A stretch of 64,000 nt of DNA. It comes from Nitrospiria bacterium (GTDB lineage Bacteria > Nitrospirota > Nitrospiria > JACQBZ01). Of this stretch, positions 41,186 to 57,629 are shown piece by piece. Both the position numbers and the translations under genes were made by a program. Position 1 is the first letter of the stretch, and every line of letters begins with the position of its first letter. The notes under the pieces are model-generated. The model did no database searches. It saw only the letters and a program-made list of their open reading frames with translations, and was not told where the DNA came from. The stretch lies in NCBI GenBank assembly GCA_035498035.1, contig DATKAN010000058.1, positions 1 through 64,000 on the forward strand. The letters run 5' to 3'.

Positions 41186-41548
41186 ATGAAAGCGGCCGGC
41201 TCTTATATAGTCCGTGAGTATCTTACGGCAAGCGGGAGGAGCCCCTTTCGAGACTGGCTGGACCGTCTGGATGTTCCCGTGAAGGCCCGCATCCAGGCCC
41301 GGATTCTGCGATTTGAATCTGGAAATTTGGGCGATTGCAAACCCATCGGCGAAGGGGTACGGGAAGCTCGGTTGGATTTCGGCCCGGGATTCCGGATTTA
41401 TTTCGGGATGGAGGGGCTGAATTTGCTTTTGCTTCTCTGTGGGGGCACAAAGAGCACCCAAAGTCGGGACATCGATCAGGCCAGAAAATTTTGGTCGGAA
41501 TATTTAGAGCGAGGGAGACATGGCAAGACGCGCGAAAGATTGGAATGA
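41186..41548 (+). CDS. RelE/HigB-type toxin (phage-derived Gp49-like)
   Basis: A 120-residue protein of the addiction-module killer family: YLTASGRSPFRDWLDRLD, ARIQARILRFESGNLGD, then LDFGPGFRIYFGMEG and LLLLLCGGTKSTQSRDIDQARKFW. These are the usual beta-sheet and catalytic regions of RelE-like ribosome-dependent mRNA interferases. Toxin-first order and a 29-base overlap with the antitoxin are typical of HigBA-like modules. Located between a metal pump and the nuo operon, where base composition drops in GC. Confidence 0.87.
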   Translation: MKAAGSYIVREYLTASGRSPFRDWLDRLDVPVKARIQARILRFESGNLGDCKPIGEGVREARLDFGPGFRIYFGMEGLNLLLLLCGGTKSTQSRDIDQARKFWSEYLERGRHGKTRERLE

Positions 41549-41828
41549 AGGCCTGGCGAAAGATCTCCGTGATCCTAAATTCGTCAAGGAGTTCATACAA
41601 GCGGCTTTGGAAGAGGGTTTGCCGATACAGGTTGTGCTCGGCAAAGTCATTCGTGCGTACGGGATAAAGGAATTTTCGAGAAAGACAAAGATTCCCGGTC
41701 CCAATATCGTCCGGGCGATCGATCCAAGACACAATCCGACGCAAGAAACGCTCAATCGTTTGCTTCGGCCGTTCGGATTGAAACTTTCGGTCAGCCTGAT
41801 CGATAAAAAAGCGAAGTCCGCGGCGTGA
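41520..41828 (+). CDS. HigA-type antitoxin with HTH domain
   Basis: A 102-residue protein with N-terminal RDPKFVKEFIQAALEEGLPIQ and a Cro-like helix-turn-helix (VIRAYGIKEFSRKTKIPGPNIVRAI split over about 46-70), then NPTQETLNRLLRPFGLKLSV. This is the pattern of Gp49-associated antitoxins. It would neutralise the toxin and repress the operon promoter. The toxin gene overlaps its start. Confidence 0.87.
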   Translation: MARRAKDWNEGLAKDLRDPKFVKEFIQAALEEGLPIQVVLGKVIRAYGIKEFSRKTKIPGPNIVRAIDPRHNPTQETLNRLLRPFGLKLSVSLIDKKAKSAA

Positions 41829-41928: not shown

Positions 41929-42099
41929 GTGAAAATCTTACCAACGACATACCAAATTATAGGTGGAGTACTTATTTTTACAGCAGTGGCCATTAATACG
42001 CTAAGACCACGAACTATTTACCATATGATTGGAGGAGGAGTGATATGCATCGTAGGCCTTTGGTTTTTATCTAAAGGCAGAAAAGATTTAAAAAGATAG
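41929..42099 (+). CDS. Small AT-rich two-helix membrane ORF
   Basis: A GTG-initiated frame of 56 codons encodes two hydrophobic helices (QIIGGVLIFTAVAINTL and MIGGGVICIVGLWFLS) with the basic end KGRKDLKR. AGGAGG lies directly before the GTG, closer than normal, so the start is uncertain; an ATG further in would give only the second helix. Composition is markedly AT-rich compared with flanking genes. It may be a real horizontally acquired small membrane protein, but evidence is limited to composition, reading frame and ribosome site. Confidence 0.42.
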   Translation: MKILPTTYQIIGGVLIFTAVAINTLRPRTIYHMIGGGVICIVGLWFLSKGRKDLKR

Positions 42100-42203
42100 A
42101 ATGGAAAAAGGGTCACGCTTGGATAATTGTCGTGTGACGATAGAGGCATGAGATGCACGCAGATCGATTGCATGCAGCTCTGGCGCGTCCCTACGCTCAG
42201 GGC

Positions 42204-42223
42204 AGGCCACCGGCCTCTTTTTC
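42204..42223 (+). terminator. Probable terminator upstream of nuo promoters
   Basis: AGGCC-ACC-GGCCT, a 5-bp GC-rich stem with a 3-base loop, is followed by CTTTTTC. Confidence 0.45.
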
Positions 42224-42248
42224 ATCCCCTTCGATCCCCCCTTCTCCC

Positions 42249-42277
42249 TTGACAATATCGTCGTGATTTCTTATGAT
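42249..42277 (+). promoter_or_regulatory. nuo operon promoter P1
   Basis: TTGACA (42249-42254) and TATGAT (42272-42277), 17-base spacing, a near-consensus sigma70-type promoter. Start near 42284. Confidence 0.7.
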
Positions 42278-42285
42278 ATTCGCTC

Positions 42286-42314
42286 TTGTTTAAGCTCCCG
42301 GCCTGTTTTATACT
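42286..42314 (+). promoter_or_regulatory. nuo operon promoter P2
   Basis: TTGTTT (42286-42291) and TATACT (42309-42314), 17-base spacing. It is weaker at -35 than P1 and begins 8 bases after it. Confidence 0.45.
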
Positions 42315-42354
42315 GAACTCAATGAGTTAGAGAGAATTTCATCTTTTCAAACGA

Positions 42355-42378
42355 GTCAATTTCCCGCAGGGAATTGAC
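42355..42378 (+). promoter_or_regulatory. Leader hairpin before nuoA
   Basis: GTCAATTTCCC pairs with GGGAATTGAC (one bulged T) around GCA. It ends 23 bases before the nuoA ATG and has no T-run, so it could affect translation or mRNA stability. Confidence 0.45.
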
Positions 42379-42401
42379 CCGGATATAACACAGGTTTTAC
42401 G

Positions 42402-42773
42402 ATGCCCGGAGAATTTGTACCGACTAATTATCTTCCGATCGTGGTCTTCATCGCGATCGCGCTCGCGTTCGGGGGCGTGACGCTGCTGCTCGGAAAAATC
42501 CTGCGGCCCAGCCGGATCTACAAGGCCAAGCTGACGCCTTATGAGAGCGGCAGCATCCCATTTTCGGACGCCCGCGCGCCGTTTCCGCTTCGCTACTACA
42601 TCATCGCGATGATCTTCGTCATCTTCGATATCGAGACGGTCTTCCTGTATCCCTGGGCCGTGGTTTACAAAGAGCTGAAGCTGTTCGGCCTGATCGAGAT
42701 GGTGCTGTTCATCCTGGTTCTGCTGGTCGGCTATTTCTATGCCTGGAAGAAAGGGGCGTTGGAATGGGATTGA
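42402..42773 (+). CDS. nuoA: NADH-quinone oxidoreductase subunit A
   Basis: First gene of a complete nuoA-N operon for proton-pumping complex I. The 123-residue protein has three membrane helices (about 10-30, 65-85, 92-115) and the conserved loop [20 protein letters not shown], part of the quinone-site surroundings, followed by [15 protein letters not shown]. Its end overlaps the nuoB start by 10 bases, so the two are translationally coupled. Confidence 0.96.
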
Positions 42774-43243
42774 TCGACCGACAGCTCGAGGCCAACTTTA
42801 TCACCACCAATGTCGATTCCGTGATCAGCTGGGCCCGGAAGGGCTCGCTCTGGCCGATGACCTTCGGCCTGGCCTGCTGCGCGATCGAGATGATGGCGAC
42901 GGTCTCCTCCCGCTACGACATCGACCGCTTCGGCGCGGGGGTCTTCCGCGCCTCGCCCCGGCAGTCGGACCTGATGATCGTCGCCGGAACGGTCTGCCGG
43001 AAGATGGCGCCGGTGATCCGGCGGATTTACGACCAGATGCCCGAGCCGCGCTACGTCATCGCGATGGGCTCCTGCGCCACGTCGGGGAATCATTACAACA
43101 GCTACAGCGTCGTTCAGGGGGTGGACCAGATCGTTCCGGTGGACGTCTACGTTCCCGGGTGTCCGCCCCGTCCGGAGGCGCTCCTTCAGGGCTTGATGAT
43201 GCTTCAGGAAAAGATCCGGCATGAGAAGGTGTTTGTAAAGTAG
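42764..43243 (+). CDS. nuoB: NADH-quinone oxidoreductase subunit B
   Basis: A 159-residue peripheral-arm subunit that carries the terminal N2 [4Fe-4S] cluster. All four ligands are visible: the tandem Cys38-Cys39 ([10 protein letters not shown]), Cys104 (MGSCATSG) and Cys133 (PGCPPRPE). The [15 protein letters not shown] loop is typical. The TAG stop lies inside a hairpin (43240-43273), the first of a series of palindromes in this operon. Confidence 0.97.
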
Positions 43244-43352
43244 ATGCCTACGGGTAAGCCCGTAGGAATCTACTCAGCGAGCAACGCAAGCGAGAGGGGG
43301 AGGCTCCATTCCGCCTCAGGCGGATGGAGGGGGCGACGTGAGCCCCTATAAA
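43240..43352. repeat. Palindromic element in the nuoB-nuoC junction (copy B)
   Basis: GTAGATGCCTACGGG and its approximate complement CCCGTAGGAATCTAC (43240-43273) form a hairpin that contains the nuoB stop. A second hairpin, CTCCAT-T-CCGCC-TCA-GGCGG-ATGGAG, is at 43304-43329. The right end GGCGACGTGAGCCCCTATA is the reverse complement of the sequence at 57626, and the element as a whole is a reverse-oriented relative of the one at 37550. The 16-mer TCCGCCTCAGGCGGAT also occurs within nuoC. Confidence 0.75.
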
Positions 43353-43354
43353 TT

Positions 43355-43882
43355 ATGACTCAGGAAATCACCCAGAAGATCCAGGAAAAGTTCCCGAGAG
43401 AATTTGTCGGGACGAATGAATTCCGGAACGAATGGACCGTGACCGTGAAGCCGGACCGGATCGTCGAGATCGCGCGGTTTTTGCGGGACGATCCTTCGAC
43501 GGAGTTCGATCACCTTTCGGACATCTACTCGGTGGACAACTCCGTGCGGTCCTCCGCCTCAGGCGGATCGGGCGAAGAGCGGTTCGAGGTGGTCTATCTG
43601 CTGAACTCCATCCCGAAGCGCCATCGTCTGCGGCTCAAGACCCTCCTCCGGGAAGACCGCTGCGAGATCGATTCGGTCTATACGGTCTGGCGGGCGGCCG
43701 GTTTTCTGGAGCGCGAGGTGTACGACCTCATGGGGATCCGGTTCCGGAACCATCCCGACCTCCGGCGGATCTTCCTCCCGGAGGATTTCGACGGGCATCC
43801 CCTTCGGAAGGAGTATCCCGCCGAGGGAAAAGGGTGGCGCAACACCTTCGAGTTCCTTCCCACCGAGGAGCCGCAGACGTAG
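43355..43882 (+). CDS. nuoC: NADH-quinone oxidoreductase subunit C
   Basis: A 175-residue 30-kDa-type subunit of the peripheral arm. Motifs: FDHLSDIYSVD, FEVVYLLNSIPKRHRLRLK, and ERE..YDLMGIRFRNHPDLRRIFLPEDFDGHPLRKEYP, the family signature, here split across about 121-156. NuoC and NuoD are separate, unlike the fused protein of E. coli. A small insert SASGGSGEE (about residues 67-75) contains the same 16-base palindrome as the preceding spacer, so it looks like a recent insertion within the reading frame. Confidence 0.95.
   Translation: MTQEITQKIQEKFPREFVGTNEFRNEWTVTVKPDRIVEIARFLRDDPSTEFDHLSDIYSVDNSVRSSASGGSGEERFEVVYLLNSIPKRHRLRLKTLLREDRCEIDSVYTVWRAAGFLEREVYDLMGIRFRNHPDLRRIFLPEDFDGHPLRKEYPAEGKGWRNTFEFLPTEEPQT
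43553..43568. repeat. 16-bp palindrome inside nuoC
   Basis: TCCGCCTCAGGCGGAT is identical to 43310-43325 in the spacer before nuoC. It is read in frame as Ser-Ala-Ser-Gly-Gly. Arms TCCGCCT and AGGCGGA are perfect around one C. Confidence 0.7.
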
Positions 43883-43889
43883 CCGCAGG

Positions 43890-45155
43890 ATGGAATTCAA
43901 AACCCCACAGAACCCCGCGACGGGCCTGAACGAGGGTCCCCTTCACGACACCGAGCCGCGGCCGATCACCGAGGACCTTCCGCTCCGCCGGAGCGAGGAG
44001 CTTCTCCTGAACCTCGGCCCCCAGCATCCCGCGACCCACGGCGTCCTCCGCGTGGTGCTGGAACTGGAGGGCGAGAAGATCATCCGGGCGACCCCCGACC
44101 TGGGCTATCTCCATCGGGGCGTCGAGAAGCTCTGCGAAGGCCTGACCTATCAGCAGATCATTCCCCATACCGACCGGCTGGACTACATCTGTTCCATGAC
44201 GAACAACTTCGCGTACGTCCGCGCGGTCGAGAAACTCCTCGGGGTTTCGATCCCGGAGCGCGGGGAGCACGTCCGGACGATCATCGCCGAGATGCAGCGG
44301 ATCGTGGGCCATCTCTTCTGGCTGGGGACGCAGGCGTTGGACATCGGAGCGATGACGATTTTTTTCTGGACCTTCCGCGAGCGCGAGGTCCTGCTCGACC
44401 TGTTCGAGCGGACCTGCGGCGCGCGGCTGACGATGAACTATTTCCGGGTCGGGGGCGTGAACGGCGATCTGAAGCCGGAGGTGATCGCGCCGCTCCGTAA
44501 GTTCCTGGCCGACTTTCCGTCCAAGATCGACGAGTACGACCGGCTATTGATGAACAACCGGATCTGGATCTCGAGGATGAAGGACGTGGCCGTGATCTCG
44601 GCCGAAGACGCCGTCAATTTCGGCCTGACCGGCCCGACGCTCCGGGGCTCCGGCGTTTCCTATGACGTGAGGAAGGCCGAGCCCTACGCGGCCTACGGCA
44701 AGGTGGAGTGGGAGGTCCCGCTCGGAACCAACGGTGACACCTACGACCGGTACTGGGTCCGGATGCAGGAGATGAAGCAGAGCGCGCGGATCATCCGGCA
44801 ATGTCTGGATCAGCTTCCGGAGGGACCGGTCCTGACCGACGTTCCGCAGGTGGTCGCCCCGCCCAAGGAAAAAGTGATGCAGGACATGCAGAGCCTCATC
44901 CACCATTTCATCATCTTTACGGAGGGGTTCCGGCCGCCCAAAGGGGAGGTCTACTGCGCGACGGAGGCCCCGAAGGGCGAGCTCGGCTTCTCGATCGTGA
45001 GCGACGGCGGGCCCAAGCCCTACCGGCTCAAGATCCGTTCGCCTTCCTTCGTTCACATGGGGGCCTTCGATCACATGGCGCGCGGATACATGATCGCCGA
45101 CATCATCACGATCTTCGGAACCTACGACATTGTAATGGGGGAATGCGATCGTTAA
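43890..45155 (+). CDS. nuoD: NADH-quinone oxidoreductase subunit D
   Basis: A 421-residue 49-kDa subunit that forms the quinone site together with NuoB. The N-terminus has about 35 extra polar residues before LLLNLGPQHPATHGVLR. Typical motifs include DLGYLHRGVEKL, PHTDRLDYICSM, and the C-terminal GELGFSIVSDGG..PYRLKIRSPSF and MGECDR. The arginine methylated by NDUFAF7 in mitochondria is, to my knowledge, in this quinone-site region (LHRG-like); a MidA gene is encoded upstream. It starts 7 bases after nuoC. Confidence 0.97.
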   Translation: MEFKTPQNPATGLNEGPLHDTEPRPITEDLPLRRSEELLLNLGPQHPATHGVLRVVLELEGEKIIRATPDLGYLHRGVEKLCEGLTYQQIIPHTDRLDYICSMTNNFAYVRAVEKLLGVSIPERGEHVRTIIAEMQRIVGHLFWLGTQALDIGAMTIFFWTFREREVLLDLFERTCGARLTMNYFRVGGVNGDLKPEVIAPLRKFLADFPSKIDEYDRLLMNNRIWISRMKDVAVISAEDAVNFGLTGPTLRGSGVSYDVRKAEPYAAYGKVEWEVPLGTNGDTYDRYWVRMQEMKQSARIIRQCLDQLPEGPVLTDVPQVVAPPKEKVMQDMQSLIHHFIIFTEGFRPPKGEVYCATEAPKGELGFSIVSDGGPKPYRLKIRSPSFVHMGAFDHMARGYMIADIITIFGTYDIVMGECDR

Positions 45156-45176
45156 AAGCCGTGAGGCGTAATGGGA

Positions 45177-45264
45177 GTAGGGGCGCACGGCGTGCGCCCA
45201 AAATAATGTAGGGACGGACCCATGTGCCCGCCCGACAGTAGCGGCGTGATTCATCACGCCCGAT
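45177..45264. repeat. Cluster of three palindromic units in the nuoD-nuoE junction
   Basis: Three units in a row, each starting GTAG: GTAGGGGCGCAC-GGC-GTGCGCCC (45177-45199), GTAGGGACGGAC..CCGCCC (about 45208-45233) and GTAGCGGCGTGAT..ATCACGCCC (about 45238-45261). Stems of 8 bp are exact in the first and third. Confidence 0.75.
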
Positions 45265-45269
45265 TGTGA

Positions 45270-45800
45270 ATGATGAATCCCGAAACGAAAAAACTGGAAT
45301 TCTCCGAGAAGACCCGCAAACAGATCGAGGAGATCCTGACGCATTATCCCGACAAACGCTCGGCGCTGCTCCCGGTCCTGAACCTGGCCCAGGCCGAGTT
45401 CGGCTATATCAGCGAAGAGGTGATGGTCCTGGTCGCGCATTGGCTCGACCTCACGCCCCCGAAGGTGTACGAGGTGCTGACCTTCTACACGCTGCTGAAC
45501 GACCGGCCGGTGGGAAAGTTCCTGATCCAGCTCTGCCGGACGCTCTCCTGCGCCCTGGTCGGGTCCGAGAATATCCTGGGCCACCTCAAACAGCGGCTGG
45601 GGATCGAGGTCGGCCAGACGACGCCGGACGGGCTGTTCACGCTGAGAACGGTGGAATGCCTGGCCTCCTGCGGGACGGCGCCGGTGATGCAGATCAACGG
45701 GGCGTTCTACGAAAAGCTGACGCGTGAGAAAGTGGACCGGATTCTGGAGGATTTGAAGGGCGGCGATGCGCCGGCGCTGAAACCGATGGGGGAGAATTGA
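45270..45800 (+). CDS. nuoE: NADH-quinone oxidoreductase subunit E
   Basis: A 176-residue thioredoxin-like 24-kDa subunit with the N1a [2Fe-2S] cluster. Ligands are a CRTLSC pair (C-X4-C) and CLASC (C-X3-C) after LRTVEC. The N-terminal helix region is LTHYPDKRSALLPVLNLAQAEFGYIS. It belongs to the NADH-oxidising module with NuoF and NuoG. Its TGA is inside a 12-bp hairpin. The start could be either of two adjacent ATGs. Confidence 0.95.
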   Translation: MMNPETKKLEFSEKTRKQIEEILTHYPDKRSALLPVLNLAQAEFGYISEEVMVLVAHWLDLTPPKVYEVLTFYTLLNDRPVGKFLIQLCRTLSCALVGSENILGHLKQRLGIEVGQTTPDGLFTLRTVECLASCGTAPVMQINGAFYEKLTREKVDRILEDLKGGDAPALKPMGEN

Positions 45801-45828
45801 GGCAAACGCGCCTTGTGCGTTTGCCTCA
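45798..45828. repeat. 12-bp hairpin containing the nuoE stop codon
   Basis: TGAGGCAAACGC (45798-45809) pairs exactly with GCGTTTGCCTCA (45817-45828) around a 7-base loop. The first three bases are the nuoE stop. No T-run follows. Confidence 0.75.
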
Positions 45829-45925
45829 GAGCAATGGAGCAATAGAACAGTGGAGAATCGGATAGGGAAAAAAGACTCCGTTGCGGTCTAATGTTCCAAT
45901 GCTCCAATGTCAGAGCAAAAAAAGA
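45829..45925. repeat. Imperfect inverted repeat in the nuoE-nuoF junction
   Basis: GGAGCAATAGAACA (about 45837-45850) is roughly complementary to TGTTCCAATGCTCC (about 45892-45905), 11 of 14 positions. The GGAGCAAT word recurs at 63330-63448. Confidence 0.5.
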
Positions 45926-45940
45926 AGCGGACTCGGTTGA

Positions 45941-47251
45941 ATGAAATACGAAAAGGTCCTGCATAAAAATTTAGAGACCCCCGGATACACCGGAAGCCTG
46001 GCCGACTACGAAGGGCAGGGGGGGTATCGGGCGATCCGAAAGGCCCTCAAGGAGTATGCCCCGGCGCAGCTGACCGATCTGGTCAAGCGGGCCGGCCTTC
46101 GCGGCCGCGGCGGCGCCGGCTTTCCCGCCGGGATGAAATGGGACTTCCTTCCGAAGGACCCGGCCCTGACCAAATATCTCTGCTGCAACGCCGACGAGAG
46201 CGAGCCGGGAACCTTCAAGGACCGCGAGCTGATCGAACGGGACCCGCATCAGCTGATCGAGGGGATGATCCTGGCGGCCTACGCCATCGGCGCCAAGGTC
46301 GCCTACATCTATGTCCGCGGGGAATTCGTCTACGGCGCCCGGGTGCTTGAGCGGGCCCTGGCCGAGGCCTACCGGGCCGGCTATCTGGGGGAAAAAATTC
46401 TGAAAAGCGGCACGGACGTCGAGATCTACCTTCATCGCGGCGCCGGGGCCTACATCTGCGGGGAGGAGACGGCGCTTCTGGAGTCGATCGAGGGAAAGCG
46501 CGGCCTTCCGAGAAACAAGCCGCCCTTTCCGGCCATCCACGGCCTGTACGGAAAGCCGACCGTGATCAACAACGTCGAGACGCTGAGCAACCTCCCGCAC
46601 ATCGTGAACCGGGGCGCGGAATGGTTCGGCTCCATCGGATCGCCGCCCAAGAGTCCCGGGATGCGGATCTTCTCGGTGAGCGGCCATGTGAACCGGCCGG
46701 GCAATTACGAGGTGCCGATGGGGATCACGCTCCGGGAGCTGATCTTCGAGCAGGCCGGCGGCGTCCGCGGCGGCAAGAAGATCAAGGCGATCATTCCCGG
46801 CGGCGCCTCGGCCGCCTTCCTGACCGAAAGTTCGCTCGATGTGAAGATGGACTTCGAGGCGATCGCGCAGGTCGGATCGATGCTCGGCTCCGGCGGCGTC
46901 ACCGTGATGGACGAGGATACCTGCATGGTCTGGGCCGCGCTCAACCTGATGGAATTCTTCGCCCACGAGACCTGCGGAAAATGCTCCCCCTGTCGGGAAG
47001 GCTCCTCCTGGCTCGTTCAGATGATGCGGCGGATCGAGCACGGACACGGACGAACGGAGGATCTCGATCATCTGGTCCGGATCTGCAACAACATCGGCGG
47101 CAAGACGGTCTGCGCGTTCGGCGATGCCGAGATCGCCCCGATTCTGAGCACGCTCAGGCACTGGCGGTCGGAATACGAATACCACGTCAAGGAAAAAAAA
47201 TGCGTGGTCGGAAATCGCGGCGGGGAATTGCTGACGATTGGAAAACATTGA
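45941..47251 (+). CDS. nuoF: NADH-quinone oxidoreductase subunit F
   Basis: A 436-residue 51-kDa subunit that binds NADH and FMN. Motifs: RGRGGAGFPAGMKWDF (FMN), CNADESEPGTFKDR, GAGAYICGEETALLESIEGKRG, and CGKCSPCREG with a later Cys for the N3 [4Fe-4S] cluster. Full length. Preceded by an 140-base spacer with repeats; the ribosome site before the ATG is weak. It should take NADH and pass electrons to NuoE/NuoG. Confidence 0.97.
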   Translation: MKYEKVLHKNLETPGYTGSLADYEGQGGYRAIRKALKEYAPAQLTDLVKRAGLRGRGGAGFPAGMKWDFLPKDPALTKYLCCNADESEPGTFKDRELIERDPHQLIEGMILAAYAIGAKVAYIYVRGEFVYGARVLERALAEAYRAGYLGEKILKSGTDVEIYLHRGAGAYICGEETALLESIEGKRGLPRNKPPFPAIHGLYGKPTVINNVETLSNLPHIVNRGAEWFGSIGSPPKSPGMRIFSVSGHVNRPGNYEVPMGITLRELIFEQAGGVRGGKKIKAIIPGGASAAFLTESSLDVKMDFEAIAQVGSMLGSGGVTVMDEDTCMVWAALNLMEFFAHETCGKCSPCREGSSWLVQMMRRIEHGHGRTEDLDHLVRICNNIGGKTVCAFGDAEIAPILSTLRHWRSEYEYHVKEKKCVVGNRGGELLTIGKH

Positions 47252-47260
47252 ATCCCTGTA

Positions 47261-47288
47261 GTAGGGGCGACGCATGCGTCGCCCCTGC
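47261..47288. repeat. Palindrome between nuoF and nuoG
   Basis: GTAGGGGCGACGCATGCGTC continues into GCCCCTGC. The 22-bp core 47264-47285 is perfect and extends to 28 bases with one G-T pair. Same family as 3127-3154. Confidence 0.82.
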
Positions 47289-47314
47289 CGGAATCAGGGT
47301 GAGGAGAAACACGG

Positions 47315-50029
47315 TTGTCTGACGCGGTCCAAATCAAAACCGACACGGTGAAGTTATCGATCGACGGCCGGACGGTGGAGGTCCCGAAGGGCACGCTGGT
47401 GATCGAGGCCGCCCGGAACCTGGGGATCGAGATCCCCTTCTTCTGCTATCACCAGAAGTTGAAATCCGACGGCAACTGCCGCATGTGTCTGGTCGCGGTC
47501 GAAAAGATGCCGAAGCTCCAGGTCTCCTGCTCCATCCCGGCCACCGAGGGCATGGTCGTCCACACCAACACGACCGTCGTGCAGGAGGCGCGAAAGGGCG
47601 TCCTGGATTTTCTCCTGGCCAATCACCCGCTGGACTGTCCGATCTGCGACGAGGGCGGCCGGTGCCCCCTCCAGAACTATTCCCAGAAATACACCGCCTA
47701 CGGGCAGTACAGGGAAGAGAAGCGGATTTATGAAAAGGAGTTTTTCAGCCCGCTGATCGAGAAGGAGATGAACCGCTGCATCCAGTGCATGCGCTGCGTC
47801 CGCTATTGCGACGAGGTGATCGATTCGAAGGCCCTTTCCTCCGTCAACCGGGGCTACCAAATCGAGATCGGCCACTACGCCGACAAGCAGCTCGACTGCG
47901 AGTTCTGCGGCGGCTGCGTCCAGATCTGTCCGGTCGGCGCGCTCCTCAACCGTCTTCCGCTGTATGAATACCGGCCATGGATGCTGACCCGGACCGAGAC
48001 GACCTGCGCCTACTGCGCCGACGGCTGCTCGCTCCGGCTCGAAAGCCGGCCGCAGACCCGCGAGGTGATCGAGGTGACCTCGTTCTGGGGAAACGAGACG
48101 AAGAGCGTCTGGGGAAAGGGACGGAACGAGGGCGATCTCTGCGCGAAGGGGTATTTCGGCTATCCCTTCGTCAACAGCCCGAACCGTCTCACGAAGCCGC
48201 TGGTGCGCCAGGACGGCCGTCGGGACGCCCCGCTGGTCGAGGCGTCCTGGGAAGAAGCCCTGGAACGCGTGGCGGAAGGGTTCGGCCGGATCAAAAGCCG
48301 GCACGGCGGCGCGGCCTTCGGGGCGCTGGCCTCGGCCCGTTGCACGAACGAGAATCTCTATGTTTTCCAGAAATTCGTCCGGCTCGTCCTCGGAAGCCCG
48401 AACATCGACAGCAGCGTGCGCTACGGGATGGCGAACGCCGCCCGCGCGATGACCGAGCTGACCGGAACGCCGCGATGGCTTCCCTCGTATGAGGAGATCG
48501 CCGGGGCCGATCTGGTCTTCGTGATCGGGACGGACATCACGCATTCCAACCCGATCGTCGGGCTGAAGGTGAAGGCCGCCGCGAAGAGGGGCGCGAGGCT
48601 TATCGTCGCCTCGCCGCTGCGGCCGAGGGTCGGCACCTTGAGCCACATCGTCAATCTGGCGACGTGCCATCTGGCCCACCGCCCGGGCGCGGAGCGGGCC
48701 GTCGCGATCGGAATGGTGAAGGCCGCGTTGGAGCCGGGAAGGGCGGCCGCGGGATCCGCCGAGCCCTCTTCAAGCGCCCGGCTGCGCGAGATGGTTTCGA
48801 AAATTTCCCAAAAACAGATCGAATCCGCCACGGGTCTGAGCTACGAGCGGATCCGGGCCGCCGTCGAGGAATGGGCCGCGGCCGCACGGGCCGTGATCGT
48901 TTTCGGCGAGTCGATCGTACGGGCGCGGGACGGCTACGATACCGTACGCGTTCTGGGCGACCTGGCCTGGCTAGGCGGAAAGCTCGGCGCGGAGGGCTGC
49001 GGTCTGGCCCCGTTGTACGAGGAAAATAACGAGATGGGCGCCTACGAGATGGGCGTCGTTCCCGACCGTCTGCCCGGCCTCGGCCGTGTGGATCGGGAAA
49101 CGGATCGGGATCGCGTCCGCCAATCCTGGCGGGAAGCGATCCCGGCCGGCCCCGGTCTCACGATGATCGAAATGCTCGGAGCGGCCCGCGAGGGGAGGAT
49201 CCGCGCGCTCTACCTGATGGGCGAGAATCCGGTCGGAACGCTTCCGGCCTCGGTCGCCGCGGCCGAGGCGCTTGCGACCGCCGAGTTCGTCGTCTGCCAG
49301 GACCTGTTTTTGACCGAGTCCGGGAATTTAGCCGATGTGGTATTGCCGGCCGCCAGCTTCGCCGAGCAGAACGGAACTTTCACGAACCAGGAAGGACGCG
49401 TCCAGGCGGTGCGGAAGGCCATCGAGCCGATTCACGGGACACGGCCGGACTGGGAAATCCTCTCCCAGCTCGCGGTCGAGATGGGTCATCCGATGGAATA
49501 CCAGGACGGCGCCGAGGTCTCGCACGAAATCGCGCGCCTCTGGCCCGGCTGGCGGGAAATTCAGGGACGGTCGGGGCCGGCCGTCGCGGCGGAGCGCTAC
49601 GGGGCCGAGCGGCTGGCCGAGGGGATTTCGGAGCGGTATCGCGTCGATTCCGTGGAAAGGGTTTCGCCGCCCTCCGACGGGCGTTTTCATCTGGCGGTGG
49701 GGCCCTTGTTGTTCCATTCCGGAAAAATGTCCCTCCAGGCCGGAGGGTTGACCACGATTCAGGACCGGTCCTTTCTCTACATGTCGCCGGAGGATGCCGG
49801 GCGGCTGGGGGTGGGAGACGGGGGGTCGGTGCGGCTCCGTTCGCCCCAGGGTCCGGGATCGGTCGAGGTCGCGGTCAAGATCGACGCGAAATATCCGCCC
49901 GGGATGGTCTTCTTCCCCGAATCCTTCAACGAGCCTCCGGTGAAGGATCTGCTGACGGTCGAGCTGGACAAGGCGTCCCGGGTCCCGGCCTTCAAGACGG
50001 CCGAGGTCATCATTGAGAAGATAACGTAG
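47315..50029 (+). CDS. nuoG: NADH-quinone oxidoreductase subunit G
   Basis: A 904-residue 75-kDa subunit that contains several iron-sulfur clusters. Visible are the N1b [2Fe-2S] region ([20 protein letters not shown]), the His/Cys N5 motif ([14 protein letters not shown]), two [4Fe-4S] motifs ([23 protein letters not shown]), and the molybdopterin-oxidoreductase-like domain that begins [11 protein letters not shown] and ends near residue 900. Start is TTG with GAGGAG upstream. The TAG lies within the palindrome that follows. Confidence 0.95.
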
Positions 50030-50053
50030 GGGCAGGGCTTGCCCTGCCCCTAT
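50026..50053. repeat. Palindrome containing the nuoG stop codon
   Basis: GTAGGGGCAGGGCTTGCCCT continues into GCCCCTAT: stem GTAGGGGCAGGGC/GCCCTGCCCCTAT with one G-T pair. The TAG at 50027-50029 is the nuoG stop. Same family as 3127 and 47261. Confidence 0.82.
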
Positions 50054-50100
50054 CCGGGCGCAGTCGGCGGGGCCCCTACAAGAATTTGGAGACGGATGAC

Positions 50101-51123
50101 ATGGTGAATATCGCGCTGAATTTAATCGTGGTGCTCGTGACGATCGGCGTCGTGATGGTCACGGTGCTGCTCCACGTGGCGTACCTGACCTATTTTGAAC
50201 GGAAAATCCTCGGTTGGATGCAGGACCGGATGGGTCCGATGGAGGTGGGCTACCACGGGCTGCTGCAGCCGATCGCGGACGGGCTGAAACTTTTTTTCAA
50301 GGAGGACATCGTCCCGGCCCAGGCCAACAAGATCATATTCACCCTGGCGCCGATATTGGTTTTGGTCCCGGCCCTCATCGGTTTTGCGGTGATCCCCTTC
50401 GGGCGTGACACGATTTCTATTTTCGGCCTGACCTTCCGCCCGTTCGTCACCGACATCAATATCGGAATCCTCTACATCCTGGCCTTCGCCTCGATCGGCG
50501 CGTACGGCGTCCTGCTGGGCGGCTGGGCCTCGAACAACAAATATTCGCTCCTGGGCGGACTGAGGTCCGCGGCCCAGGTGATCAGCTACGAGCTGTCGCT
50601 GGGCCTGGCGATCGTCGGCGTGCTGCTGATGGCCGGCTCGCTGAGCCTCGTCAAGATCACGGAGGCGCAGGGCGGGGGGCTGCTGCACTGGTTCATCCTG
50701 CCCCAGTTCGTGGCCTTCGTGATCTATCTCATCTCCGCGATCGCCGAGACCAACCGGCTGCCCTTCGACCTTCCGGAGGCCGAAAGCGAATTGGTGGCCG
50801 GCTTCTTCACCGAGTACAGCGGCATGCGATTTGCCTTTTTCTTTTTGGCCGAGTATGCTAACATGATCCTCGTTTCTTGCATCGCCACGATCCTGTTTCT
50901 GGGCGGATGGCACGCGCCCTTCGAAGCGCTGGGGTTCATCCCCCCGATCCTCTGGTTCGTGATCAAGGTCTACTTCTTTTTGTTCTTCTATATCTGGATT
51001 CGGGGAACGCTTCCGCGCCTGCGCTACGATCAGCTGATGATGTTCGGGTGGAAGGTGATGATTCCGCTGGCGCTGGCCAACATCCTGGTCACGTCCACGG
51101 TTCTGTATTTTGTCAGGGGGTGA
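50101..51123 (+). CDS. nuoH: NADH-quinone oxidoreductase subunit H
   Basis: A 340-residue membrane subunit that connects the two arms at the quinone entry. About eight helices are seen. Conserved loops: [39 protein letters not shown] and [27 protein letters not shown]. The ATG was preferred over an in-frame TTG 15 bases upstream because TTGGAG lies 9 bases before it. nuoI begins 1 base after the TGA. Confidence 0.96.
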
Positions 51124-51124
51124 G

Positions 51125-51658
51125 ATGAAAGGCCTGCGACGGTTCATCCAACAGGTCCTGTTTCTGGAAATCCTCGTGGGTCTCGCGTCGACCTTCCGTC
51201 ATCTGTTCACCCGGCCCGTCACGATCCAGTATCCCCACGAAAAACGGGTGCTCCCCAACGGCTATCGCGGCTTCATCGCGCTGCTGCGCTACGACGACGG
51301 AACCGAGAAATGCGTCGGCTGCGACCTGTGCGAGGCGGCCTGTCCGTCCCGCGTGATCACGGTGATCAGCGCCGAGGTGGAGGGCCAGCCGCTCAAACGC
51401 TACGCCAGGGAATACACCATGGACATGACCCGCTGCGTCTTCTGCGGGTTGTGCGTGGAGGCCTGCCCTGTCAACGCGCTGGGCATGACCAAAGAGTACG
51501 AATACGCGACGTATGACAAGCGCAGGCTCAAGCTCAACAAGGAACAGTTGCTGGCCATCGGGGACAGGGCCTTCCCGGCCCGGGAGACGCGCGTCGAATT
51601 CCAACATCCCCATGCGGCCTTCTTCAACGTGGCGCATCGGGGCTATCCCGCCAAATGA
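51125..51658 (+). CDS. nuoI: NADH-quinone oxidoreductase subunit I
   Basis: A 177-residue ferredoxin-type subunit with N6a and N6b [4Fe-4S] clusters. Both motifs are complete: CVGCDLCEAACP and CVFCGLCVEACP. The N-terminus has an amphipathic helix for membrane attachment, followed by RHLFTRPVTIQYP. It starts immediately after nuoH. A C-terminal tail after the second motif is typical in length. Confidence 0.96.
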   Translation: MKGLRRFIQQVLFLEILVGLASTFRHLFTRPVTIQYPHEKRVLPNGYRGFIALLRYDDGTEKCVGCDLCEAACPSRVITVISAEVEGQPLKRYAREYTMDMTRCVFCGLCVEACPVNALGMTKEYEYATYDKRRLKLNKEQLLAIGDRAFPARETRVEFQHPHAAFFNVAHRGYPAK

Positions 51659-51772
51659 TGCGCCGCGCCTGTCGGGCCTGGTCCTTCCAGGTCGGATCAA
51701 AACCATCGGTTCGTTTCAAGCGGCGTCGGGCGAGACCCCGCGGGGCCGCCGCGCGCCGTTGAAGACAACACC

Positions 51773-52297
51773 ATGACAACCGTCTTGTTCTTGTATTTCG
51801 CAGGCGTGATCGTGTCGACGGCGGTCCTCGTGGTCGCGTCGCGGAAGCCCGTCAACAGCGCGCTATCGCTGCTGGTCATGTTCTTTCACGTGGCCGGCCT
51901 GTTCGTGCTGCTGAACGCCGAATTCATCGCGGCCGTTCAGATCATCGTCTATGCCGGGGCCATTCTGGTCCTGTATCTCTTCGTGGTGATGCTGCTCAAT
52001 CTGCGCGCCGAAGAGGGTTATAACAAGCAATATCTCGTCGGCATGATGGTCGGGCTGGCGATTCTGATCGAGGCCGTCCTGATCCTGAACCGCTCCGGAT
52101 TCGCGGACCGTGCGCTGCCGGCCGCGGGGCCGGCGCCCGACGTCCTCCCCGGCAACACCGAGGGGATCGGGCGGGCCCTGTACACCATCTATCTGTTTCC
52201 TTTCGAGGTGGCCTCCCTGATCCTGCTGGTCGCGATGATCGGGGCCATCATCCTGGCGAAGAAGGGAATGTTCGGTAAGGAAGAGAGGCGATTCTGA
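51773..52297 (+). CDS. nuoJ: NADH-quinone oxidoreductase subunit J
   Basis: A 174-residue membrane subunit with five helices. The key helix [25 protein letters not shown] is split by the conserved YAGAI pi-bulge region, and the LNLRAEEGY loop follows. A 114-base spacer with GC-rich hairpins separates it from nuoI. Its start ATG lacks a clear ribosome site (CACCATGAC). Confidence 0.94.
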
Positions 52298-52310
52298 ATC
52301 AAAGAGATTT

Positions 52311-52419
52311 GAGAAGCGGGTGGCCACAGGCGGGGCGCCCCACCGAGCGGAGCCGGGGTCCCTACACCGGGCGGGGTGGCGAGCACGGTGGGGCTGGCGA
52401 AGGACAGGACCCGCTTCTC
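52311..52419. repeat. Inverted repeat in the nuoJ-nuoK junction
   Basis: GAGAAGCGGGT (52311-52321) and ACCCGCTTCTC (52409-52419) are exact complements, 87 bases apart. The interval is rich in GGGGCG and CCCC words that can form inner stems. Confidence 0.7.
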
Positions 52420-52439
52420 CGTCGATTTCTGGAGACTTA

Positions 52440-52742
52440 ATGGTTCCGTTGTTGTATTACGTGATTCTCGGCACGATCGTATTCCTGATCGGCGTCGTCG
52501 GCGTCCTGATCCGGAGGAACATCATCATCATCCTGCTCTCGATCGAGCTGATGCTGAACGCCGCGAACATCAACTTCGTCGCCTTTTCGCACTATCTTCG
52601 GAACATCAACGGCCAGGTCTTCGTCTTTTTCGTCCTGACGGTGGCCGCGGCCGAGGTGGTCGTCGGATTGGCCATCATCATCGCGCTCTATCGCGGGAAG
52701 GCCACGGTCGATATCGAGAACGTCAACCTGATGAAATGGTGA
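52440..52742 (+). CDS. nuoK: NADH-quinone oxidoreductase subunit K
   Basis: A 100-residue membrane subunit with three helices. Proton-channel glutamates are at their usual positions: Glu36 ([17 protein letters not shown]) and Glu72 ([10 protein letters not shown]). Length equals that of E. coli NuoK. GGAGA lies about 6 bases upstream of the ATG. The TGA overlaps the nuoL ATG by one base, so the two are coupled. Confidence 0.96.
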
Positions 52743-54658
52743 TGACGGACGCGCTCATTCCACTGCTTCCCTTCGCGGCCTTCGCGGTCCTCGGACTGGG
52801 CGAGCTCTTCGGCCCCGGATTCGGGCCCCGCGCCCATTGGATCGCGGTGCCCGCCGTGTTCGGCTCGCTGCTGTTTTCGGTCGTCGCCTTCGGCTCGGTC
52901 CTCTCAGGCGGCCCGCACGACCTGCCCCTGTACACCTGGGCGGTTTCGGGAACCTTCCAGGCCTCGATCGGGATCCACGTCGACGCCCTGACGGCCGTGA
53001 TGCTGCTGCTGGTCACGATCGTGAGCGCCCTCGTTCATCTCTACACCGTCGGCTACATGCACGGCGACCGCGGCTACGCCCGGTTCTTCGCCTATATCGG
53101 ATTGTTCACCTTTTCGATGCTGATGCTGGTGACGGCCGGAAACCTGCTTCAGCTGTACATCTTCTGGGAAGCGGTCGGCCTCTGCTCCTATCTTCTGATC
53201 GCGCATTGGTATGAACGGCCCCCGGCCGCCGCAGCCGCCACCAAGGCCTTTGTCGTCAATCGAATCGGAGACTTCGGGTTCGCGCTCGGGATCTTCCTCG
53301 TCTTCCGCCTCGTCGGCTCGCTGGACTACGGCCAGGTCTTTGCCGAGCTTCCGAAGCACGCGGCCGAAACGATCCCGATCGCCGGGCTCGAACTGCCGGC
53401 CGTCACGCTGATCGCGCTGCTGCTTTTCATGGGCGCGGTCGGAAAATCGGCCCAGCTACCGCTTCACGTCTGGCTGCCCGACGCGATGGAAGGACCGACG
53501 CCCATCTCCGCGCTGATCCATGCCGCCACAATGGTGACGGCCGGCGTCTTCATGATCGCGCGGCTGATCCCGATCTTCAATCTATCCCCCGCGGCGATGG
53601 AAGTGATCGCGACGACCGGGGCGGCCACGGCCCTGTTCGCGGCCACGATCGCGCTGACCCAGAACGATATCAAACGCGTCGTGGCCTATTCCACCGTGAG
53701 CCAGCTGGGCTACATGGTCATGGCCTGCGGCCTGGGGGCGTCGATCGCCGGTATCTTTCACCTCCTCACCCACGGCGCCTTCAAGGCGCTTCTTTTTCTC
53801 GGCTGCGGGAGCGTGATCCACGCGATGGGGGGGGAACAGGACCTGAGAAAGATGGGGGGGCTGAAATCTCGCCTGCCCGTGACCTACGCCACGTTTTATA
53901 TCGGCGCGCTGGCCCTGGCCGGGATTCCGCCGCTGGCCGGTTTTTTCAGCAAGGATGAAATATTGTTCCGGGCCTTTTTTTCCGGCGGGGCCGGGATCCT
54001 TTTCTGGGGGGTGGGGGTCGCGACCTCTTTCCTGACGGCCTTCTACAGTTTTCGTCTCATTTATACCGTATTTCACGGTCCGTCCCGCGTCGATCCCAAG
54101 GCGGCCGCCTCACTGCACGAATCCCCCCTCGTGATGACGATTCCCCTGGTCGTGCTGGCGGCTCTGTCCGTCACGGCGGGATGGGCGGGGCTGCCGGTGG
54201 ACGGTTGGAACGGGATCGCGGCCATCCTGGGCCCGGTCCTCTCGCCCGGCGAACCGTCCGAACCGGATGCCGGACTCCTGTGGGTGTTGATGGGGGTCTC
54301 GGTCGCGGTGGCTTTGGGCGGATGGATGACGGCCCGGTATTTTTATCTGACCCGGCCGGAGCTGCCGGGACGGCTGGCGACGCGGGCGGCCGCGCTCTAC
54401 CGGCTTTCGCTCAACAAATGGTACGTCGATGAACTGTACGACTGGCTCTTCGTCCGCCCGACGACCCGCCTCGCGGACCGGCTTTGGCGGACGGTGGATG
54501 TCCGGACTATCGACCAGGCGGTCAACGGGGTGGGGGGATCGACCCTGGCCGGTGCACGGATCCTCCGGCTTCTCCAGAGCGGCCAGCTCCAGCATTACGC
54601 CCTGGCGATGATGGTGGGCACTTTCGTGATCCTGACGGTCTACTTGATCATTCGATAA
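52742..54658 (+). CDS. nuoL: NADH-quinone oxidoreductase subunit L
   Basis: A 638-residue antiporter-like subunit at the distal end of the membrane arm, with about 16 helices and the long C-terminal lateral helix. Motifs: LQLYIFWEAVGLCSYLLI (key Glu), AFVVNRIGDFGFALG, LPDAMEGPTPISALIHAATMVTAG split over the channel, and LALAGIPPLAGFFSKDE. The frame remains open upstream, but the nuoK overlap fixes ATG 52742. nuoM begins 20 bases later. Confidence 0.96.
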   Translation: MTDALIPLLPFAAFAVLGLGELFGPGFGPRAHWIAVPAVFGSLLFSVVAFGSVLSGGPHDLPLYTWAVSGTFQASIGIHVDALTAVMLLLVTIVSALVHLYTVGYMHGDRGYARFFAYIGLFTFSMLMLVTAGNLLQLYIFWEAVGLCSYLLIAHWYERPPAAAAATKAFVVNRIGDFGFALGIFLVFRLVGSLDYGQVFAELPKHAAETIPIAGLELPAVTLIALLLFMGAVGKSAQLPLHVWLPDAMEGPTPISALIHAATMVTAGVFMIARLIPIFNLSPAAMEVIATTGAATALFAATIALTQNDIKRVVAYSTVSQLGYMVMACGLGASIAGIFHLLTHGAFKALLFLGCGSVIHAMGGEQDLRKMGGLKSRLPVTYATFYIGALALAGIPPLAGFFSKDEILFRAFFSGGAGILFWGVGVATSFLTAFYSFRLIYTVFHGPSRVDPKAAASLHESPLVMTIPLVVLAALSVTAGWAGLPVDGWNGIAAILGPVLSPGEPSEPDAGLLWVLMGVSVAVALGGWMTARYFYLTRPELPGRLATRAAALYRLSLNKWYVDELYDWLFVRPTTRLADRLWRTVDVRTIDQAVNGVGGSTLAGARILRLLQSGQLQHYALAMMVGTFVILTVYLIIR

Positions 54659-54678
54659 AGGCGGGAACAAAACGACCG

Positions 54679-56190
54679 ATGATTGAGAATCCGGGCCATC
54701 TCCTGAGCATCCTGATCTTCCTTCCGCTGGCGGGGGCCGTCGTCCTGGCCTTCTTCCCGGGCAACGACGCCGGCGTCCGCCGGATGGCCTTGGGCCTGAC
54801 CGCCGCCGCCTTCCTTTTCTCGCTTACCCTTCTCCCGTCCTTCGATCCCTCCAGTCCGGCGATGCAGTTCGTCGAGCGGGTTCCGTGGATTCCGGCGTTT
54901 CATATCGAATACGCCGTGGGCGTGGACGGGATCAGCCTCCTGTTCGTCCTGCTGACCACGCTCCTGTCGCCGATCTGCGTCCTGGCCTCCTGGACCTCCG
55001 TGGCCGTGCGGGTGAAGGAGTTCATGATCGCCCTCCTGGTGATGGAGGGCGCCATGATCGGCGTCTTCGTCTCGCTGGACTTCGTCCTGTTCTACGTGTT
55101 CTGGGAGGCGATGCTGATCCCGATGTACCTGATCATCGGGGTGTGGGGCGGCCCCAACCGGATCTATGCCGCGATCAAGTTTTTCCTGTATACCCTGGCG
55201 GGAAGCCTCCTGCTGCTTGTGGCGATTCTCGTCCTGTACTTCAACGGCGGTCGGACCTTCGACATCCTCCGGCTGATGGGTCAGCCCTATCCGGCCGCGA
55301 TCCAGTTCTGGATCTTCTGGGCCTTTTTCCTGGCCTTCGCGATCAAGGTCCCGATGTTTCCGTTCCACACGTGGCTTCCGGACGCCCACGTCGAGGCGCC
55401 CACCGCCGGCAGCGTGATCCTGGCCAGCATCCTGCTGAAGATGGGCGGCTACGGCTTCCTGCGCTTCGGCCTGCCGATGGTGCCCCAGGCCTCGCGCTCC
55501 TTTACCGGCTTCATCCTGGCCCTCTCGGTGATCGCGATCCTGTACGGCGCGTACATGGCCCTGGCGCAGACGGATCTCAAGAAACTGATCGCGTATTCCT
55601 CGGTCTCCCACATGGGATTCGTGACGCTGGGGATCTTCGTCCTGAACGCCCAGGGCATCGAGGGCGCGCTGCTCCAGATGGTCAACCACGGGATCACGAC
55701 CGGGGCCCTCTTCCTCCTGGTCGGGATGATCTACGACCGGACGCACAGCCGGCTGATCTCGGACTACGGCGGGATCGCGCGGCCGATGCCCCGCTACGGG
55801 ACGATGCTGGCGATCTTCGCCCTCTCCTCGCTGGGCCTCCCGGGGATGAACAGCTTCGTGGGCGAGTTTCTGGTGCTCCTGGGGGCCTTCATGAGGCATG
55901 CCGGCCTGGCCGTCGCGGCCACGCTGGGGGTCATCCTGGCCGCGGTCTATCTCCTCTGGATGGTTCAGCGCATGCTGTTCGGGCCGATCACCCGGTCCGA
56001 CCCTGCGCGGCTGACGGATCTGGGGACGCGCGAGATGGCGATCCTCGCCCCGCTGTTCGTCCTGGTGTTCGCGATCGGGGTCTATCCCGACCCGCTGCTG
56101 TCTCTGATGCACGCCAGCGTGGATCACCTCCTGTCGCAGGTCAACGCGGCCGCGCCGTTTCAGCTCTCGGAGGTCTGGACGCGGCCATGA
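54679..56190 (+). CDS. nuoM: NADH-quinone oxidoreductase subunit M
   Basis: A 503-residue antiporter-like proton-pumping subunit. The key Glu143 is in FWEAMLIPMYLIIGVWGG; further motifs are FHTWLPDAHVEAPTAGSVIL and YSSVSHMGFVTLGI, and LSSLGLPGMNSFVGEF. Length is typical. Stop overlaps the nuoN ATG by 4 bases (ATGA). Confidence 0.96.
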   Translation: MIENPGHLLSILIFLPLAGAVVLAFFPGNDAGVRRMALGLTAAAFLFSLTLLPSFDPSSPAMQFVERVPWIPAFHIEYAVGVDGISLLFVLLTTLLSPICVLASWTSVAVRVKEFMIALLVMEGAMIGVFVSLDFVLFYVFWEAMLIPMYLIIGVWGGPNRIYAAIKFFLYTLAGSLLLLVAILVLYFNGGRTFDILRLMGQPYPAAIQFWIFWAFFLAFAIKVPMFPFHTWLPDAHVEAPTAGSVILASILLKMGGYGFLRFGLPMVPQASRSFTGFILALSVIAILYGAYMALAQTDLKKLIAYSSVSHMGFVTLGIFVLNAQGIEGALLQMVNHGITTGALFLLVGMIYDRTHSRLISDYGGIARPMPRYGTMLAIFALSSLGLPGMNSFVGEFLVLLGAFMRHAGLAVAATLGVILAAVYLLWMVQRMLFGPITRSDPARLTDLGTREMAILAPLFVLVFAIGVYPDPLLSLMHASVDHLLSQVNAAAPFQLSEVWTRP

Positions 56191-57629
56191 ATTTTTCGGT
56201 CACCGAAATCGGGGCGGTGCTTCCCGAAATCCTCGTGGCGGTCTACGCCTGCGCCATCCTTCTGATCGAGCCCTTCCTTCCGAAAGAGCGTCGGGAGGTG
56301 CCGGCCTACTTCGGGTTCGCGGCGCTGGGCCTGGGCTTCTGGGGGACGTCGCGGATCCTGTGGGCCGATCTGACGGTGATGAACGGGATGTTCGTCCTGG
56401 ATCCGTTCGGCAATTTCTTCAAGCTGATCCTCTACGTTGCGGCGGCGATGACGATCCTGCTTTCGATGGGCTATCTCAAGCGCGAGAGGATCGAGCTGGG
56501 GGAGTACTACGCCTTCGTCCTTTTCGCCACGTGCGGGATGATGATCCTGGTGTCCGCGTCCGACTTGATCACGGTTTTCCTGGGGCTGGAGCTGATGTCG
56601 ATTTCGTTTTACATCCTCGCCGGCTTCAAGCGCTTCGAGGAAAAATCGCTCGAGGCGGCGGCCAAGTATTTCATACTGGGATCTTTTTCCTCCGGAATCC
56701 TTCTGTTCGGCATCTCGCTGCTGTACGGGCTGTCCGGGACGACCAACCTGCAGGCCCTGGCCGCGCACCTCCACGGGGGGGAGCTCCAGAACCCGGGCTG
56801 GATCCTGGCGATGATCCTGCTCGTCGTGGGTTTCGGGTTCAAGGTCGCGGCCGTGCCGTTCCACATGTGGGCGCCGGACGTCTACGAAGGGGCCCCCACG
56901 CCGGTCACCGCCTTCCTCTCGGTCGGTTCCAAGGCCGCCAGCTTCGCCGTCTTCCTCCGGGTCTTCATCGAAGCCCTGGGCGGGATACAGGCCGAATGGC
57001 GCATCCTGCTCATTTTCCTGGCGGTCGTCACGATCATCACGGGCAATGTGGTGGCGCTGGTACAGACCAACGTCAAGCGGATGCTGGCTTACTCCGGCAT
57101 CGCCCATGCGGGTTACGCGCTGATCGGGCTGATCGTCGGGGATTCGCTCGGGGTCTTCAGCCTGATGGTTTACATGCTGGTCTACGCCTTCATGACCGTG
57201 GGGGCCTTCGGGGTCGTGATGCTGCTCCGCCGGGAGGGGGTCGAGGGGGACGAGCTCCGCGACTTCGCTGGGCTGGCCCGCAAAGACAAGCTGACGGCCT
57301 TCGCCATGCTGGTCTTCATGTTCTCGCTGGCCGGGATCCCGCCGACGGCCGGCTTCGTCGCGAAGTTTTACATTTTCATGGCGGCCGTGCACGCGCACCT
57401 GACCTGGCTGGTCGTCCTCGGGGTGGCCTTCACGGCGGTCTCGGCCTATTTCTATCTGAGGGTCGTGATGGTGATGTACATGAAGGAACCCGACGAGGCG
57501 GTTCAGGTGGCGGCCCCGCCCGGGGTGGTCATGGTCCTGGCCGCCGCGGCCGCGGTGGTGCTGTTGCTGGGGATCTATCCCGGCCCGTTCCTGGATTATG
57601 CGCAGGAGGCCGTGCTTCGATTAAGATAG
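56187..57629 (+). CDS. nuoN: NADH-quinone oxidoreductase subunit N
   Basis: A 480-residue antiporter-like subunit and last gene of the operon. Key residues are in VFLGLELMSISFYILAGF, FHMWAPDVYEGAPTPVTAFL and YSGIAHAGYALIGL, MFSLAGIPPTAGFVAKFY. Fourteen helices are expected. The operon ends here with all 14 standard subunits, one copy each, and no accessory NuoL/M duplication. The TAG is followed at once by a repeat with no T-run terminator. Confidence 0.96.
   Translation: MNFSVTEIGAVLPEILVAVYACAILLIEPFLPKERREVPAYFGFAALGLGFWGTSRILWADLTVMNGMFVLDPFGNFFKLILYVAAAMTILLSMGYLKRERIELGEYYAFVLFATCGMMILVSASDLITVFLGLELMSISFYILAGFKRFEEKSLEAAAKYFILGSFSSGILLFGISLLYGLSGTTNLQALAAHLHGGELQNPGWILAMILLVVGFGFKVAAVPFHMWAPDVYEGAPTPVTAFLSVGSKAASFAVFLRVFIEALGGIQAEWRILLIFLAVVTIITGNVVALVQTNVKRMLAYSGIAHAGYALIGLIVGDSLGVFSLMVYMLVYAFMTVGAFGVVMLLRREGVEGDELRDFAGLARKDKLTAFAMLVFMFSLAGIPPTAGFVAKFYIFMAAVHAHLTWLVVLGVAFTAVSAYFYLRVVMVMYMKEPDEAVQVAAPPGVVMVLAAAAAVVLLLGIYPGPFLDYAQEAVLRLR

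Follow-up and report, generated by a model that had tools for sequence, protein, structure and literature searches.

Background

Repetitive extragenic palindromes (REPs) of the GTAG type are mostly found past the end of coding regions, in spacers whose genes are unidirectional or convergent, and their termini often give a TAG stop codon (Di Nocera et al. 2013, PMC3733652). Double-foot REPs (GTAG...CTAC) are associated with subclass 2.4 of the TnpAREP transposases; they border the transposase gene and also occur within its reading frame, in the segment that separates the HuH motif from the Tyr motif (Quentin et al. 2018, PMC6006769). When their distance to a stop codon is at most 15 nt, REPs are reported in Escherichia coli to cause ribosome stalling and to affect translation, as summarised in PMC12306157. 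The present study deals with hairpins located at gene junctions of the nuo operon of a Nitrospiria bacterium, within a stretch of 64,000 nucleotides (positions 1 to 64,000 of contig DATKAN010000058.1, assembly GCA_035498035.1; hereafter the window) where the nuo genes run on the + strand from nuoA (~42402) through nuoN (~57629).

These hairpins are very likely, for the most part, inserted and turning-over repeats tolerated at gene ends, of the REP kind or similar to miniature inverted-repeat transposable elements (MITEs). Three junctions (D-E, F-G and G-H) are occupied by one family, referred to here as the GTAGGGGC family, which resembles the GTAG REPs (PMC3733652) in forming dispersed short stem-loops with a GTAG end, near the stop codon of the upstream gene and able to supply its TAG. 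It agrees with the description of that superfamily as short stem-loops with GTAG at one end (stem 5-13 bp, loop 2-20 nt), with complementary stem changes among dispersed copies and a location between unidirectional or convergent genes, near their 3' ends. As in subclass 2.4 (PMC6006769), its copies bear 5' GTAG and 3' CTAC feet with G-C pairs at the base of the stem, and the putative Nitrospiria transposases are flanked by REPs, enclose an in-frame REP and carry the NHxH, WQ and YIxxNP motifs. The REPs flanking a gene of the Y1 HuH type (an arrangement named REPtron, found here in relatives), the internal in-frame REP and motifs of the form NH[IFV]H, WQ and YIxNNP all correspond to that subclass, to which the family is likened by these sequence features. 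Unlike in the subclass 2.4 reports, the lineage is a new one, comprising several families of the class Nitrospiria. The occurrence of palindromes inside one operon, with a possible effect on the mRNA of the upstream gene, recalls the REPs and bacterial interspersed mosaic elements of E. coli (Higgins et al. 1982, cited in PMC12306157), from which the nuo palindromes differ by an unrelated stem sequence and by being known from sequence only. Two further repeats, element A of 73 nt and element B of 109 nt, resemble MITEs in being short, dispersed and non-coding, and B has inverted ends; no consistent target duplication was seen.

The source genome (G000) is a 2.67-Mb draft in 67 contigs. Its relatives, likewise drafts, include two congeneric genomes (G001 and G002) and four confamilial ones (G003 to G006). 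Statistics on location were derived from a 459-kb sample of the source genome (~17%) with genes predicted by a home-made caller, and ten order-2 Markov copies of the window served as chance control for inverted repeats.

Hairpins at the nuo junctions

Inverted repeats were found in six of the 13 nuo junctions (B-C, D-E, E-F, F-G, G-H and J-K). An earlier examination of the window without database searches (hereafter the sequence-only reading) had named these six, all of which are confirmed, and had described palindromes in nearly every junction, which is too strong since none was found in the other seven. Five of the junctions are tight (A-B, C-D, H-I, K-L and L-M), and no repeat was found in the I-J junction (~114 nt). 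The stop codons that the sequence-only reading had placed within left hairpin arms were recovered for nuoB (TAG, 43241-43243), nuoE (TGA, 45798-45800) and nuoG (TAG, 50027-50029). The features are the following:

43239-43254 and 43259-43274 (arms), + strand: nuoB-nuoC hairpin GTAGATGCCTACGGG/CCCGTAGGAATCTAC, arms 94% complementary, GTAG/CTAC at both feet
43275-43347, + strand: element A, 73-nt dispersed repeat in the B-C junction, whose frame is conserved and whose central hairpin varies
45177-45199, + strand: nuoD-nuoE GTAG REP of the GTAGGGGC type, with one foot
45208-45233 (degenerate) and 45238-45260, + strand: two more GTAG-headed hairpins between nuoD and nuoE, read from the sequence
45798-45809 and 45817-45828 (arms), + strand: perfect nuoE-nuoF hairpin TGAGGCAAACGC/GCGTTTGCCTCA, the left arm holding the nuoE TGA stop
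45829-45925, + strand: loosely repeated short inverted units (AATGGAGCAATAGAAC... / ...GTTCCAATGCTCCAATG) between nuoE and nuoF, read from the sequence
47261-47288 (arms 47263-47274 and 47275-47286), + strand: nuoF-nuoG GTAGGGGCGACGCATGCGTCGCCCCTGC, double-foot REP with its 3' foot mutated from CTAC to CTGC
50026-50053 (arms 50027-50038 and 50041-50052), + strand: nuoG-nuoH GTAGGGGCAGGGCTTGCCCTGCCCCTAT REP, whose TAG is the nuoG stop codon
52311-52419 (outer arms 52311-52321 and 52409-52419), + strand: element B, 109 nt, MITE-like (ends AGCGGGT...ACCCGCT), which takes up the nuoJ-nuoK junction

The GTAG-headed hairpins of the D-E junction form together a small REP cluster, where an arm pair at 45245-45256/45271-45282 was also detected, and the apparent J-K hairpin corresponds to both ends of the single element B. 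The view that the palindromes share a structure and not one sequence stands insofar as several families differ from each other, but the D-E, F-G and G-H palindromes all belong to the GTAGGGGC family; the impression arose because several families and two singletons were mixed.

Perfect hairpins with arms of at least 11 nt number eight in the window, three of them in nuo, versus 0-2 per Markov copy, which rules out chance inverted repeats. In the RNA predictions, folding stands out clearly at three junctions only, namely B-C, E-F and F-G (z-scores of -4.9, -4.2 and -3.9, respectively), the values being about -2 at D-E and G-H and -0.8 at J-K. A known structured RNA was discarded as a candidate, no Rfam covariance model giving a match above its gathering score over 42000-57000.

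Dispersed repeat families

The perfect pattern GTAGGGGC-N0-20-GCCCCTAC occurs 24 times in the source genome versus none for the reversed control, a per-genome count that the sequence-only reading had proposed. The inner arms differ between these copies and yet match each other within a copy, with complementary changes in the stem. Perfect palindromes number 7-30 in seven related genomes belonging to two families, two in the genome G008 and zero in two Nitrospiraceae. Within the 459-kb sample, 20 GTAGGGGC-headed hairpins were counted, most of them with the GTAG foot paired to CTAC. Among the matches listed, a literature search for the string GTAGGGGC returned unrelated papers only.

Element A has at least 30 matches in the source genome and 17-31 in each family member, and five genomes belonging to three further families have 11-34; scoring was restricted to the best ~29 candidates per genome, so that counts near 30 are lower bounds. 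Five pairs of its central hairpin show compensatory change among 20 copies. Element A had no match in plasmids or phages. Single copies with 95-96% identity were observed in G162 (C2:257947-258019), a member of the family f2 to which G028 and G030 belong, and in G091 (C93:7001-7074), from another class of the same phylum; such similarity suggests a recent transfer or a contamination. A palindrome TCCGCCTCAGGCGGA (43553-43567, + strand), identical to the centre of the element A copy in the adjacent B-C junction, was also noticed in frame within nuoC, at a length-variable stretch where NuoC is four residues longer in the source genome than in G002.

Element B gave 26 matches in the source genome, 31 in G001 and none in G002. 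Variable outer arms were considered as a rule for this element and rejected, the flanks being complementary in only some copies, and no consistent flank duplication was seen. No transposase with ends matching those of A or B came up, no search aimed at one having been made. The papers covered gave no match for the two stretches of element A that were searched, a search that did not include element B; both elements may be undescribed so far.

The nuoB and nuoE hairpins were also tried as repeat families and rejected. The nuoB-nuoC pattern occurs once in the source genome and is absent from the five relatives searched, and the nuoE-nuoF pattern GAGGCA-N4-24-TGCCTC is found three times in the genome versus five for its reversed control, with no repeat match of this hairpin within the 459-kb sample.

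Turnover among related genomes

The comparison of spacers in relatives, advised by the sequence-only reading, revealed orthologous junctions that are mostly empty or differently filled. The B-C junction lacks both the hairpin and the insert in all five relatives covering it, and nuoJ and nuoK nearly abut, with no insert, in all five covering the J-K junction; these two junctions are thus occupied in the source genome only. The D-E junction is tight and empty in three relatives (G002, G003 and G005). At F-G, a perfect palindrome is present at the equivalent place in G002 and none in G003 and G005, and the copy of the source genome has lost its outer pairs without compensation. A single insertion point at G-H carries three sets of inner arms (one in the source genome and G001, one in G002 and one in G004), and the nuoG stop is TAA, with no palindrome, in G003 and G005. 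The E-F junction is tight in G003 and G005, and its sequence differs among the source genome, G001, G002, G004 and G006.

This turnover extends to other genes. Among 87 orthologous neighbour pairs shared with G002, 13 hold A, B or GTAGGGGC in at least one of the genomes and only two of these 13 in both, the two lying within nuo. Nine of the 49 pairs shared with G003 are occupied, none in both genomes.

Placement relative to genes

None of the 35 intergenic A, B and GTAGGGGC copies of the 459-kb sample lies in a divergent spacer, versus 7.9 expected by length (p = 1.3e-4), and pooling three genomes gave 5 of 70 copies versus 14 expected (p = 0.003). The GTAGGGGC copies of codirectional spacers are located at a median of 19 nt past the stop codon, and 26 of 31 are closer to this stop than to the next start; the TAG stop itself is supplied by 8 of 38 copies. 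The absence from divergent spacers and the closeness to stops indicate that the gene-end preference suspected in the sequence-only reading is real across the sampled genome. On contig C25 of the source genome (L053:19110-19133), one GTAGGGGC palindrome gives both TAG stops of a convergent gene pair, one per foot.

A different kind of structured spacer was observed in the nuo operon of G030, a member of the Nitrospiraceae (L044), where most junctions contain ~75-100 nt of loosely repeated facing short units (GATGAATGATGA.../TCATCATTCATC, AAAGTC.../GACTTT and GGCCTATGGC.../GCCATAAG) that also occur in some other spacers (L109, L114) and share no sequence with the GTAGGGGC family. Enrichment in both direct and inverted 6-mers concerns 6 of 69 spacers in G030, as compared with 2 of 139 in the source genome and, in E. 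coli, 0 of 18. In the window itself, two small adjacent open reading frames located just upstream of nuoA (41186-41828) resemble, by their translation, a toxin-antitoxin pair of the HigB/HigA type.

Putative cognate transposases

Weaker matches to the NCBI model of REP-associated transposases coincide with GTAGGGGC palindromes, and the only two perfect palindromes of G008 sit in and just past such a gene. Eighteen transposase loci were fetched from the source genome, G001 to G005, G008, G010, G013, G016 and G029. In most of them a GTAGGGGC site is found at the transposase stop or at most ~40 nt past it, several having an upstream site too, and the TAG of the palindrome past the gene is frequently the gene's own stop codon. 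Most of these genes also contain an in-frame internal GTAGGGGC palindrome at a homologous position, shortly after the NHxH codons of the HuH motif and ahead of the Tyr motif. In the transposase on contig C30 of G001, this palindrome is identical to that of nuoG-nuoH over 24 nt. Ten aligned transposases display the NHxH, WQ and YIxxNP motifs with invariant N80, H81, H83, W136, Q137, Y157, N161 and P162; L, V, I or C stands between the histidines, and the residue preceding NP also varies.

The strongest Y1 matches of the source genome are two transposase genes on contig C55, which were considered as mobilisers and rejected, being flanked by GGGGTCAG-type inverted ends and not by A, B or GTAGGGGC. 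These two near-identical genes of the REP-type tyrosine transposase kind (L055:13582-17403), with their GGGGTCAG inverted ends, surround an open reading frame of 620 amino acids resembling an RHS/YD-repeat protein, and could form a composite mobile unit.

Alternative explanations

The sequence-only reading had proposed either a control of mRNA processing or stability setting the subunit ratios, or mobile palindromes inserted preferentially at gene ends. The latter is supported by the dispersed families, the empty or differently occupied orthologous junctions, the 3'-end preference and the cognate transposases bearing the same palindromes. Some observations nevertheless weigh against an interpretation by inserted REP-like repeats. 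The nuoB and nuoE hairpins are non-repeats for which the families do not account. Most GTAGGGGC copies pair their GTAG with a CTAC foot, unlike the classical GTAG REPs, and GTAG is unpaired only in a minority of copies. The sole cognate transposase found in the draft source genome (contig C11) has an in-frame TGA, which also departs from the subclass 2.4 reports and speaks against taking current mobility in this genome for granted. A weak orientation bias was found for element A, 18 of 24 copies lying along transcription (p = 0.02). Finally, 5 of 14 codirectional nuo junctions are occupied versus 25 of 316 elsewhere in the sample (Fisher p = 0.005, with no correction for the choice of the nuo operon because of its palindromes), a difference for which a local cause is conceivable.

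Such a cause could be a lineage-specific exaptation, in which mobile arrivals at the nuoB, nuoE and nuoG stops would now either reduce translation or shield the upstream message, thereby tuning the subunit ratios, the tuned junctions differing by species. We regard it as unlikely, although it fares best among the alternatives. It would fit the above-background, uncorrected occupancy, the E-F junction holding independently different elements in five genomes (the source genome, G001, G002, G004 and G006) and the G-H hairpin retained with three sets of inner arms. However, neither position nor arm sequence is conserved, and in G003 and G005, where the operon is not evidently lost, both G-H and E-F are empty.

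Elements designed for mRNA processing, stability or translational control, fixing the nuo subunit ratios, are improbable. The strong folding that is predicted for B-C, E-F and F-G, the three stop codons within arms and the reported stalling of E. coli ribosomes by REPs at most 15 nt from a stop, as summarised in PMC12306157, would agree with such elements. Most of these junctions are nevertheless tight in the nuo operons of G003 and G005, the B-C and J-K hairpins are confined to the source genome, the outer pairs of the F-G copy are lost uncompensated and the same elements also lie between unrelated genes; as a conserved mechanism, the regulation of subunit ratios is not supported. Structured spacers are moreover ordinary, 56% of the codirectional spacers having z < -2 in an E. 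coli control stretch (18 spacers only, ordinary terminators included) versus 20% in the source genome.

Intrinsic terminators or attenuators within the operon, which intergenic GC-rich hairpins might evoke, are highly improbable, as no T-run follows any palindrome on the sense strand, in agreement with the sequence-only reading, the terminator-like matches at nuo palindromes (50052-50027 and 43266-43247) are antisense only and five of the six junctions carry elements present at many other loci.

Conclusions

According to the explanation by inserted repeats, the nuo junctions have gathered copies of several short dispersed families, namely GTAG REPs at three junctions, element A at one and element B at one. 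The REPs would be moved via single-stranded hairpins by TnpAREP transposases, also called REP-associated tyrosine transposases (RAYT), and insertions would persist chiefly after gene ends, because the G-TAG foot closes the frame and each nuo gene further down has a ribosome-binding site of its own. It would then be the mobilising enzyme that preserves the shape of the hairpin, without the nuo mRNA requiring it, and elements A and B would represent separate non-autonomous repeats. Considering the effect reported for E. coli REPs that lie no more than 15 nt from a stop (PMC12306157), nuoB, nuoE or nuoG may be affected locally, through upstream translation or mRNA decay.

The nuo palindromes thus appear mainly as ordinary genomic passengers, with no support for a conserved system controlling nuo. 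In these results, REP biology of a known type is met in a new lineage, with two apparently undescribed small repeat families in addition. They call for caution, as intergenic hairpins should not be taken as conserved regulation without a comparison of the junctions across species. They also show one conserved operon of uncultured Nitrospirota to be a place where several unrelated small repeats have settled, and link its main family to the system of double-foot REPs and in-gene REP transposases, so far mainly described in Cyanobacteria and Bacteroidetes.

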